Assembly (NCBI GenBank): GCA_016870455.1
Contig: VGBN01000012.1
Span: 1 to 37,296, forward strand
DNA length: 37,296 bases
Source: Actinomycetota bacterium
Lineage (GTDB): Bacteria > Actinomycetota > Actinomycetes > Nanopelagicales > Nanopelagicaceae
Direction of reading: 5' to 3'
Positions within the stretch are counted from its first letter, which is position 1. Every line of letters starts with the position of its first letter. The notes below the pieces were generated by a model. It saw only the letters and a program-made list of their open reading frames with translations. It was not told where the DNA came from and did no database searches. Of the stretch, positions 22,995 through 26,360 are shown in pieces. Both the position numbers and the translations under genes were made by a program.

Positions 22995-23824
22995 TGACAT
23001 TAGCTGGCAAGAGAATTTTAGTTACCGGAGGCTCCCGCGGAATTGGACTTGCCATCGCTTTACGGGCGGCTAAAGATGGTGCCTGGATTGCCATCGCCGC
23101 TAAAACAACGGAAGCACATCCAAAACTACCCGGCACAATCTTTACTGCAGCAAAAGATATTGAAGCAGCTGGTGGCAAAGCATTGGCGATTCAATGTGAT
23201 CTTCGCGATGAAAATCAGATAGCTAAAGCGGTGGAACAGGCTGGTAGTGCATTTGGTGGCATAGATATATTGATTAATAACGCATCTGCAATAAATTTAA
23301 CTAATACCGAGAACACACCTGCTAAAAGATTTGACTTGATGATGGGTGTAAACACACGTGGCACATTTCTTACCTCCCAAGCCTGCTTGCCATATTTAAA
23401 GAAGAGCGCGCAAGAGGGAAGAAACCCCCACATTTTGATGCTCTCACCACCCTTATCAATGAAGGGTAAATGGTTTAAGCCTCACCTGGCTTACACCATG
23501 GCTAAATACGGAATGAGTATGTGTGTTTTGGGATTGGCTGATGAGATAAAACGAGATGGCATCGGTGTTAATGCACTGTGGCCCAGAACTGCAATCGATA
23601 CTGCAGCATTAGCAATGATTCCTGGGGTTGATACTGCATTTTGCCGAACCACAGATATTCTTGCCGATTCAGCCTACATAATTTTAAATCGATCAGGTAA
23701 AGAGTGTTCGGGTAACTTCTTTATCGATGATGAGGTATTAGCAAGTGAGGGAATTGTTGATTTGGATAAATACGCAGTAGTGCCTGGTACCAAAGAGTTT
23801 ATAAATGATCTATTTGTTGATTAG
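22994..23824 (+). CDS. Short-chain dehydrogenase, HSDL2-like
   Basis: This NAD(P)-dependent oxidoreductase has 276 residues. The Rossmann motif is TGGSRGIGLAIA near the N-terminus, NNAS is present, and the catalytic Tyr-X3-Lys is in AYTMAKYGMS, preceded by LSPPLSMKGKWFKPHL. This last stretch and the ending (SGNFFIDDEVL) resemble hydroxysteroid dehydrogenase-like protein 2, a peroxisomal protein of unclear substrate in animals; only the SDR part is present, without the SCP2 domain. It is translationally coupled to the enoyl-CoA hydratase gene, pointing to acyl-CoA or sterol-like substrates (inference). It overlaps cbiO by four bases at the 3' ends. Confidence 0.88.
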   Translation: MTLAGKRILVTGGSRGIGLAIALRAAKDGAWIAIAAKTTEAHPKLPGTIFTAAKDIEAAGGKALAIQCDLRDENQIAKAVEQAGSAFGGIDILINNASAINLTNTENTPAKRFDLMMGVNTRGTFLTSQACLPYLKKSAQEGRNPHILMLSPPLSMKGKWFKPHLAYTMAKYGMSMCVLGLADEIKRDGIGVNALWPRTAIDTAALAMIPGVDTAFCRTTDILADSAYIILNRSGKECSGNFFIDDEVLASEGIVDLDKYAVVPGTKEFINDLFVD

Positions 23825-24567
23825 AGAGTAAACCCAACCGGTAGCTCTAATCTATGCTTTTTTAGTAGCTCTTTGTCTTTGAGTAACTCTGTTGTTTTTC
23901 CATCTGCTGCGATAACTCCACCCGAAAGAATCAAAGCTCTTTCGCATAACTCATTGGCATATGGCAGATCATGGGTAACCATGATCATGGTTATATCCAA
24001 GGATCTTAAAATATCGACTAATTCACGTCTACTTGCTGGGTCAAGATTTGATGAAGGCTCATCTAAAACTAATATCTCAGGCTTCATTGCTAAGACTGTT
24101 GCTACAGCAACTCGCCGACGTTGGCCAAATGAAAGATGATGTGGTGGGCGATCTTTGTACTCAAGCATTCCTACTAAAGATAGTGAGTCTTCAACAACCT
24201 TAGTCAGATCACCGTTACGTAGACCCATATTGTATGGACCAAACGCCACATCTTGGCCAACAGTTGGCATAAACAATTGATCATCGGGATCCTGAAAAAC
24301 AATTCCAACTTTGGATCTAATTTGTTTAAGCGATTCCTTATCTTCGTTATCTACTAATTTACCTGCAACAAAAACTCGGCCATGACCAGAGGATAAAATC
24401 CCATTTAAATGTAAAACTAAGGTTGTCTTACCAGCGCCATTTGGCCCGAGCAAGGCAACTCTTTCACCTCGCTTTATAGTTAGATTTACACCAAATAAAG
24501 CCTGGTTTCCATCTGGATAGGCAAAGGCTAACTCTTCAATAACCAAAGAGTTTTCAGAGTTTGACAT
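23821..24567 (-). CDS. cbiO: Cobalt ECF transporter ATPase
   Basis: This ATP-binding subunit drives cobalt uptake with CbiM, CbiN and CbiQ. The 248 residues show Walker A LLGPNGAGKTTL, the Q-loop with the energy-coupling-factor pattern FQDPDDQLFMPTV, the signature LSFGQRRRVAVA, Walker B ILVLDEPSSNLD and the switch histidine MVTHDLPYA. The ATG lies four bases after the cbiQ stop. GGTTAGGAT upstream could be a Shine-Dalgarno (AGGA, eight bases away) or a TAGGAT -10 at six bases; inside an operon I favour the former. It is the last gene of the cbiMNQO operon and ends convergently with the SDR gene. Confidence 0.94.
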   Translation of the reverse strand: MSNSENSLVIEELAFAYPDGNQALFGVNLTIKRGERVALLGPNGAGKTTLVLHLNGILSSGHGRVFVAGKLVDNEDKESLKQIRSKVGIVFQDPDDQLFMPTVGQDVAFGPYNMGLRNGDLTKVVEDSLSLVGMLEYKDRPPHHLSFGQRRRVAVATVLAMKPEILVLDEPSSNLDPASRRELVDILRSLDITMIMVTHDLPYANELCERALILSGGVIAADGKTTELLKDKELLKKHRLELPVGFTL

Positions 24568-24571
24568 GAAT

Positions 24572-25375
24572 TTATCCTAACCAGTTACTAAGAAGTGAGA
24601 TCGCCAAAGCAAGTGCTGGAATTGAAAGAGCAGTAATCCAATCTTTTGCATGATTGGCAACTCTTTCTTCCTTCGGAAGATCACCTTGGTAGCCGCGGGC
24701 AATCATTGCCAGGTGCACGCGCTCACCTCTCTCATAAGATCTAATAAAAAGAGCACCTGCTGCAGTTGCAAGTACTGGCCACTGCCTAACTCCAGTTGCT
24801 TCAAAGCCACGTGCTGATCGAGCAACTGCCATTCGCTGCATCTCATCATTTACGACATTTATGTAGCGGAGCATGAAGGATGCAATCTGCACCATTGGGG
24901 TTGGCATCTTTAAAATCTCAAGCCCGCGCAAAATTTCTCTAGCCGTGGTAGTCGCCGATAAATTAATTGCAACCAAGATACCTAATGTGCCCTTAGCAAC
25001 GATGCTAGCTCCAGCTAGAAGGCCATCCCGATACAAATTCAAAGATCCCACCTCAAACCGCTCTCCGGTTCCAAAAAATGGCATCAAAATGGCAAATAAA
25101 ATGAAGGGAATCTCAATCAGTGAGCGTTTTGCAACAGTGCTGAATGGTAATTTAGCGACCTGGGTAACAGAGATAATAATCAAAAAGAAAGCGATAAAAG
25201 CTGGCCAATTTGAAATGTCGGTTGAGACTGCAACAATTATAAATAGTAGCCCTGCAACAATTTTTATGTGTGCTGGAATTTGATGGGCAATTGAATGTCG
25301 GTGAAGATAAAGTCGCTCACCAACATCATGGCCATGGTGATGAACTGATCTATCTTTACTTGCTAAATTATTGAT
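24572..25375 (-). CDS. cbiQ: Cobalt ECF transporter transmembrane subunit, non-standard start
   Basis: CbiQ is the T-component linking the ATPase to the metal-binding CbiM. The ORF-track start (TTG 25183) truncates it. The frame stays open upstream to a TGA at 25400-25402 and encodes clear CbiQ sequence: LYLHRHSIAHQIPAHIKIVA and a full first transmembrane helix. Yet no ATG, GTG or TTG occurs in that stretch. ATC at 25375, overlapping the cbiN stop, would give 267 residues, the normal family size, and is my best guess; an ATT further in, a +1 frameshift from cbiN, or a one-base error in the nearby run of five A/T are alternatives. The remaining protein is typical (VQIASFMLRYINVVNDEMQRM, FIRSYERGERVHLAM). 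Confidence 0.8.
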   Translation of the reverse strand: MNNLASKDRSVHHHGHDVGERLYLHRHSIAHQIPAHIKIVAGLLFIIVAVSTDISNWPAFIAFFLIIISVTQVAKLPFSTVAKRSLIEIPFILFAILMPFFGTGERFEVGSLNLYRDGLLAGASIVAKGTLGILVAINLSATTTAREILRGLEILKMPTPMVQIASFMLRYINVVNDEMQRMAVARSARGFEATGVRQWPVLATAAGALFIRSYERGERVHLAMIARGYQGDLPKEERVANHAKDWITALSIPALALAISLLSNWLG

Positions 25376-25682
25376 TTTTACTAGTTGCTTTCTTTCGAAT
25401 CAAAGTAAAAAACCCCACCGCAATTACCGCAGTTGCAACTACCCCAATCAAGCCAGCAAGACCAACTGAGAGGCGGGCATTCTCTAGCCCTGAAACTCCG
25501 TAATCAGCTAGGGTGAAATCACTTAGGGTGTGGTCTTTAGCAGTCTCGATGAAACCTACATCTTCAGCTACCTTCTCTAATCCGTCAGGGGAGGAGGAGG
25601 CGTAAAAGGAAACACCACCAGCAAGTAAAGCGCTTACCAAAATGGCACTGGCAAAAAATTTACGGTTAGATATTTTCATCAC
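25368..25682 (-). CDS. cbiN: Cobalt ECF transporter small subunit (PDGLE domain)
   Basis: CbiN assists metal loading of CbiM. The 104-residue protein has an N-terminal hydrophobic helix (FFASAILVSALLAGGVSFYA), the PDGLE motif (SSPDGLEKVAEDVGF), an ADYGVSGL segment and a second helix (LIGVVATAVIAVGFFTLI) followed by a basic tail. This is the expected two-helix hairpin with an extracytoplasmic loop. It begins GTG-ATG directly after the cbiM stop, so either codon could initiate. Its own stop overlaps the probable beginning of cbiQ. Confidence 0.9.
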   Translation of the reverse strand: MMKISNRKFFASAILVSALLAGGVSFYASSSPDGLEKVAEDVGFIETAKDHTLSDFTLADYGVSGLENARLSVGLAGLIGVVATAVIAVGFFTLIRKKATSKNQ

Positions 25683-26354
25683 TTAAGTTCTAATCTCAAG
25701 TGTGGAGTTTTTCTTATCCCAGCCAAAAACTAGATCAGATCGACTTGCAAGCACAGCACTTACAGTTAGTGCTGTAATGATCGCCTCACCAATTCCGATT
25801 AAAATATGTGTTCCAACCATTGCATTTAAAACAGTAGTAACTGAAAATGTAGCGTTTGCACCTATTGCATATTGGATTACAAATCCAATTGCAGCCGCAG
25901 GCACTGATACAAGCGCAGCAATAAATGTAGCTACCACAACCCATGTCTTACTCTTAGGAAGAATTTTCTTTAACACCACAAATACTGCAAAACTTACCCA
26001 GACACTGATTACTGCCATATTGAAAACACTCAAACCAAGTGCGGTTAAGCCACCATCGGCAAATAGAAATGCTTGGATGATTAAAACCACTACTAATGCC
26101 AAAGTGGCTGCATATGGACCGACCAAGACCATCGCCAGGGCTGCGCCAATTAGATGGCCGCTGGTACCAGCGGCAACCGGAAAGTTAAGCATTTGCACCG
26201 CAAAGATAAAGACTGCGGTCAATCCAGCCAGCGGAGCACTTTGCTCACTTAACTGTTTTCTCGCCCCCTTAACTGCTCCGACAACTGCCACTGTGGAGGC
26301 AGCGGCAAAAGCGGCTGAGGTGGGCAGATCTATAAAGCCATCTGGGATATGCAC
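25683..26354 (-). CDS. cbiM: Cobalt-binding ECF transporter subunit
   Basis: CbiM is the membrane S-component that binds the cobalt (or nickel) ion. I place the start at GTG 26354, not ATG 26357. It gives MHIPDGFID, and in characterised family members the metal is held by the amino terminus and the His at position 2. It also puts TAGTCT exactly six bases upstream, as at other leaderless genes here. The later His motif AAGTSGHLIGAAL is present, as is FLFADGGLTALGLSVFNMAV, with six or so hydrophobic helices in 223 residues. Cobalt rather than nickel is suggested by the separate cbiN and overall resemblance, but is not proven. Confidence 0.92.
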   Translation of the reverse strand: MHIPDGFIDLPTSAAFAAASTVAVVGAVKGARKQLSEQSAPLAGLTAVFIFAVQMLNFPVAAGTSGHLIGAALAMVLVGPYAATLALVVVLIIQAFLFADGGLTALGLSVFNMAVISVWVSFAVFVVLKKILPKSKTWVVVATFIAALVSVPAAAIGFVIQYAIGANATFSVTTVLNAMVGTHILIGIGEAIITALTVSAVLASRSDLVFGWDKKNSTLEIRT

Positions 26355-26360
26355 CATCCA

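Follow-up and report, generated by a model that had tools for sequence, protein, structure and literature searches.

The window analyzed here, a stretch of 37,296 nucleotides (contig VGBN01000012.1), comes from a 1.01-Mb assembly of 58 contigs that is 83% complete, and the relatives of this genome are Nanopelagicales (acI) actinobacteria. Its minus strand carries a cobalt-type ECF transporter operon composed of cbiM, cbiN, cbiQ, and cbiO, with the following features:

25683-26357, minus strand: cbiM, S component (substrate-specific subunit), with an ATG start; Pfam CbiM, E = 7e-54
25368-25682, minus strand: cbiN, with the stop codon TAA at 25370-25368; Pfam PDGLE, E = 2e-18, and weak matches to CbiN models
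25368-25380, minus strand: cbiN-cbiQ junction, an A5 run and the cbiN stop (minus-strand TAAAAATCAATAA); A5 is the same in all eight closest distinct junctions
25184-25402, minus strand: part of the cbiQ frame lacking ATG, GTG, and TTG, holding HHHGHDVGERLYLHRHS and the first membrane helix
25373-25375, minus strand: ATC, proposed start codon of cbiQ, in ATCAATAA overlapping the cbiN stop; the sole in-frame near-cognate codon before the conserved body
24572-25375, minus strand: cbiQ as proposed, 267 amino acids plus stop, first residue fMet (ATC); based on TIGR02454, Pfam CbiQ, and dN/dS
25181-25183, minus strand: TTG, first standard in-frame start of cbiQ, at a position not conserved in relatives
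23821-24567, minus strand: cbiO, ATPase, with an ATG start; Pfam ABC_tran, and TIGR01166 (cbiO) above cut-off

The cbiQ frame runs from TGA 25402-25400 down to the stop codon at 24574-24572. Its product was identified as CbiQ, the T component of cobalt ECF transporters, by a match of the stop-to-stop frame to the equivalog model TIGR02454 (137.6 bits versus a cut-off of 111.8) and by the adjoining cbiM, cbiN, and cbiO genes. The original prediction stated that no ATG, GTG, or TTG lies between the TGA and TTG 25183, and that a start at this TTG would cut off the genuine N-terminus of CbiQ. Both statements were borne out. TTG 25183 is the first standard in-frame start, so that no ATG, GTG, or TTG is positioned to start the conserved CbiQ, which is the sequence pattern of genes with non-canonical starts. 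The missing N-terminus is supported by the TIGR02454 match, by the Pfam CbiQ match, which begins at residue 36 of the stop-to-stop frame, and by selection: across six members of the window clade, dN/dS for the stretch between HHHGHDV and the TTG region is 0.022 in the cbiQ frame versus 9.1 and 3.6 in the other two frames, and it is 0.040 for the remainder of cbiQ. The region upstream of the TTG is therefore translated in the cbiQ frame. Confidence is lower for the exact start codon than for the frame, because the spacer between the ATC and HGHDV is only weakly constrained in this clade (dN/dS 0.52).

Gene finders accepting only ATG, GTG, and TTG would be forced to place the start at TTG 25183 or at another standard codon within the conserved body, which would leave the N-terminal segment untranslated. 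This placement is hardly credible in view of the dN/dS of the segment upstream of the TTG, of the position of the first standard start downstream, which varies among relatives, and of other Actinomycetes, where an ATG or GTG stands just upstream of the conserved GHxH motif. Of 26 cbiQ loci from these other Actinomycetes, 22 have ATG, or GTG read as such, immediately 5' of the G-H-x-H motif, three have Val at that place (codon not printed), and one has neither. CbiQ of the window opens with a histidine cluster, HHHGHD (25325-25342, minus strand), which is found order-wide, is longer in some genera (HSHGHHHGHD), and is possibly metal-binding.

A search of 296 genomes of the order Nanopelagicales found cbiQ in 90 of them. 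The complete genomes G001, G005, and G014, which belong to the same genus as the window, gave no cbiQ match, so the operon has a patchy distribution in this genus. After removal of duplicates, 84 distinct cbiN-cbiQ junctions were compared, nearly all from Nanopelagicales and at least one labelled outside the order (L059, Actinomycetales). The sources included single-cell genomes (SCGC AAA028-A23, AAA027-J17), numerous MAGs, and, from an isolate, the complete Candidatus Planktophila versatilis genome (NZ_CP016774.1, L048). No ATG, GTG, or TTG occurs between 12 nt before the cbiN stop and the HGH motif in 73 of the 84 junctions, or in 60 of them when the scan begins 30 nt before the stop, these rows being related and their counts not independent events. 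Another 13 junctions carry an in-frame TTG or GTG at most 30 nt inside cbiN that could act as their start, and 12 junctions lack any ATN or CTG codon near the cbiN stop. In-frame stops flagged within cbiQ of three relatives proved to be merely stop codons three or four residues earlier. Judged from these sequences, cbiQ appears usually to have lost all standard start signals throughout an order of freshwater actinobacteria, and the missing start goes beyond chance because the gap is maintained across that order. An ordinary ATG at the junction of relatives, which the original prediction had named as evidence against itself, was found only in a few scattered lineages outside the window genus (L044, L045, L070, L075, L132).

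One base fewer in the A5 run would put cbiN and cbiQ in one frame, and an assembly or sequencing error at this place had been proposed. The comparison rules this out for practical purposes: the eight closest distinct junctions sharing the A5 come from single-cell genomes and independent MAGs, and the start is also missing in more distant genera without an A-run, including the complete P. versatilis genome.

The presumed cbiQ start shares bases with the cbiN stop codon. The overlap is ATCAATAA in the window and NTAA, NTGA, ATTAA, or ATTAG in most relatives, a spacing found in coupled gene pairs, and the codon at the stop almost always has the form NTA, NTG, or NTT. Where cbiQ is in frame -1 to cbiN, this codon is ATA (22 junctions), GTA (9), CTG (5), TTA (4), CTA (2), or ATG (2); in junctions with cbiQ in frame +1, ATT (15) and GTT (6) predominate. 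In the window genus, also in frame +1, ATC stands one codon earlier, within ATCAATAA, ATCGTTAA, or ATCGCTGA. An ATC or ATT start overlapping the cbiN stop had been suggested for the window; ATC 25375-25373 is backed by the relatives, being invariant in the eight closest distinct junctions, but no in-frame ATT overlaps the stop in the window, this form being found in other genera. A nearby in-frame stop pins the start in 22 junctions, for example in TAG|ATA of P. versatilis (L048), TAA|ATA (L115), TGA AGA ATT (L040), and TAA GTC GTA (L029), and the cbiN stop itself is uncertain in two (L012, L124). Natural GTA occurs at the junctions L029, L033, L035, L053, and L110. In E. coli, GTA, GTT, TTA, and CTA would be expected to initiate very poorly.

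When the seven start classes are placed on a tree of 77 cbiN-cbiQ sequences, they require 16 changes versus 38 when shuffled (none of 200 shuffles was as low), and the standard ATG accounts for six rows and five changes; the codon thus drifts slowly, and ATG comes and goes. Of the 37 NTA junctions, 22 have A immediately before the stop, versus 20% before TAA or TAG in other genes (binomial p about 1e-7), and 31 have a purine there, versus 45% before TAA or TAG elsewhere (p about 1e-6), the true significance of both biases being lower than these p values because the rows are related.

The overlap of the two frames also brings to mind a programmed ribosomal frameshift at the end of cbiN yielding a CbiN-CbiQ fusion protein, and a +1 shift had been among the original suggestions. 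In six phase-2 junctions, the last cbiN codon AAA could indeed re-pair after a -1 slip. However, 33 junctions would need a +1 shift and 46 a -1 shift, and five have cbiQ in phase after the stop (phases 1, 2, and 0, respectively), so that the fixed frame relation between cbiN and cbiQ expected of a programmed frameshift is absent. A natural switch of this relation is seen in the near-identical L042 and L074 (G284): L074 has one additional base close to the cbiN end, which turns the final residues KKDRN into KKG and shifts the stop, and the phase flips while the cbiQ codons AGG ATA GAA ATT AGA GTC GAG remain unchanged. There is also no conserved slippery site, the last-codon pairs being varied and most of them unable to re-pair (CCG to ACC, CCA to GCC, CGT to GTT), and L048 and L115 have an in-frame stop immediately before the start. 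With sister lineages differing in the cbiN frame relative to an unchanged cbiQ and with slippery sites absent, a programmed frameshift is very unlikely.

No Shine-Dalgarno (SD) motif was detected before cbiQ: the pairing energy there, -2.99 kcal/mol, matches that at ordinary gene ends (-3.02 kcal/mol, p = 0.78), whereas 144 ATGA-coupled genes pair more strongly (-5.05 kcal/mol, p = 2e-8). Such a motif is usual but not obligatory in termination-reinitiation pairs, and the cbiQ junction does without it. An altered translation machinery was considered and rejected for P. versatilis and G014, which have an ordinary-looking initiator tRNA (CAU anticodon, three G-C pairs), 16S 3' end (CCTCCTTT), and IF3.

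In an uncoupled alternative, free 30S subunits might start de novo on the near-cognate codon in the manner of infC, the overlap with cbiN then reflecting only genome compaction. Starts of this kind are known, as actinobacterial infC and sigR start at ATC and GTC (PMC5472188) and natural AUA and AUU starts exist in S. aureus (PMC13009471). We nevertheless consider an uncoupled start improbable for cbiQ: the S. aureus non-canonical starts rely on a strong SD, whereas the cbiQ junction scores like a gene end, and the start position stays at the cbiN stop while the codon changes.

For cbiQ, the direct observations are the lack of a standard start and of an SD motif, selection in the frame, and the clade-wide pattern at the stop codon. 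The explanation that we favor, and regard as probable, is that cbiQ is translated by cbiN-coupled termination-reinitiation at a near-cognate codon, ATC 25375-25373 in the window. A ribosome ending at the cbiN TAA (25370-25368) would be incompletely released and would restart within a few nucleotides, using the ordinary initiator tRNA, at the near-cognate codon overlapping the cbiN stop, which would adjoin the P site of the terminating ribosome. The anticodon CAU of fMet-tRNA would pair with the first two bases, AU, of the ATC, and the third would be tolerated. Since termination itself brings the ribosome to the site, SD and AUG would be dispensable, and the codon would therefore be free to drift across the order (AUA, AUC, AUU, GUA, GUU, CUG, and others). 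From the sequences we infer a start at that codon, a dependence on cbiN translation, and a yield below that of AUG.

Termination-reinitiation is a well-established mode of translation for overlapping genes (Huber et al. 2019, PMC6728339), and non-AUG reinitiation works in E. coli with an initiator tRNA whose anticodon has been changed (PMC2268962). Counting against the proposal, overexpressed IF3 inhibits reinitiation in E. coli, more so without an SD (PMC2268962), and the natural AUA and AUU starts of S. aureus reach only about 10-30% of AUG with strong extended SD motifs (PMC13009471), unlike cbiQ, which has no SD. The expected weakness of GTA, GTT, TTA, and CTA as starts, the 12 junctions without ATN or CTG, and the 13 with TTG or GTG inside cbiN also speak against it.

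The search for similar starts was extended to whole genomes by comparing P. versatilis with 1.16 Mb of a complete genome of the window's genus (G014), which yielded 979 reciprocal pairs; cbiQ is outside this comparison because G014 lacks it. The comparison was limited to non-overlapping best matches because antisense ORFs swamped the unrestricted version, and weaker matches from frames overlapping conserved upstream genes were left uncounted. Clear cases of a conserved N-terminus before any standard start were few, namely rnc in both genomes, menA in P. versatilis, and lspA, infC, and an MFS gene in G014, and nadD, prs, and recX are possible further cases. Most of these genes are located at an upstream stop, and the arrangement of menA, lspA, and rnc, being like that of cbiQ, counts in favor of coupling. 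The presumed start codons are CTG for rnc and lspA, ATT for menA, and ATC for infC. The loci are:

L284-L313; G285 810621, minus strand; G014 471666, plus strand: rnc
G285 1142412 (L191:2412-3254), plus strand: menA-like UbiA prenyltransferase, with ATT in ATTAAT overlapping the upstream stop and the SD AGGAGG
G014 about 531,000, plus strand: lspA-like gene, with the first standard start 140 codons in

In many Nanopelagicales genomes, rnc (RNase III) has no ATG, GTG, or TTG before its conserved N-terminus, and most of about 25 distinct sequences keep a CTG that immediately follows the upstream TGA (TCTGATCTG). menA has ATTAA at the upstream stop where the G014 ortholog has ATGA, and the lspA-like gene of G014 likely starts at the CTG of a CTGA overlap after AAAGGAGG. 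A broader reading, which we put forward as speculative and rather doubtful, is that post-termination ribosomes of Nanopelagicales may restart at a place fixed by the stop, at nearly any NUN codon (including GUA, UUA, and CUA) and without SD pairing, cbiQ being the clearest of a small set of genes without start signals.

A conserved transport gene without standard start or SD across an order offers a natural test of whether reinitiating ribosomes follow the start-codon rules of free 30S subunits, a question that bears on reinitiation by 70S or 30S and on the role of IF3. In practical terms, gene-finding software that recognizes only ATG, GTG, and TTG as starts would shorten cbiQ, and in some genomes probably rnc and lspA too, in a freshwater lineage that ranks among the most abundant.

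Our literature search turned up no publication that deals with the start of cbiQ or with start codons in Nanopelagicales, and related systems are known elsewhere. The infC gene, encoding IF3, starts at AUU, AUC, or AUA, and this start is used for autoregulation by IF3. Like cbiQ, infC has a natural near-cognate start kept in evolution, but its start serves that autoregulation, whereas the cbiQ codon is not fixed and we know of no autoregulatory link for cbiQ. The pairs with ATGA or TGATG overlaps (PMC6728339) resemble cbiN-cbiQ in that the two genes run in the same direction, belong to one complex, and overlap at stop and start, and differ in having a standard start and usually an SD motif. 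sigR of Streptomyces (PMC5472188), also actinobacterial, likewise has a non-canonical start and is wrongly annotated in genomes, but its GTC start has an RBS, whereas the cbiQ codons drift and overlap the upstream stop. In E. coli recJ, according to Haggerty and Lovett (1997) as cited in PMC2268962, a GUA mutant was restored by IF3 mutations; as that citing account has it, GUA initiation there occurs, as at cbiQ, in a gene apparently coupled by reinitiation and without an SD, but the recJ GUA is a mutation needing an altered IF3, whereas the GTA of cbiQ is natural and accompanied by an ordinary-looking IF3. The S. aureus genes ccpN, citZ, and cvfC1 (PMC13009471) share with cbiQ the use of AUA or AUU starts in real genes and differ from it in their extended SD motifs. 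Against this background of an otherwise known phenomenon, the new element, as far as the sequences indicate, is the combination of a degenerate non-canonical start, the absence of an SD, and order-wide persistence at one junction.
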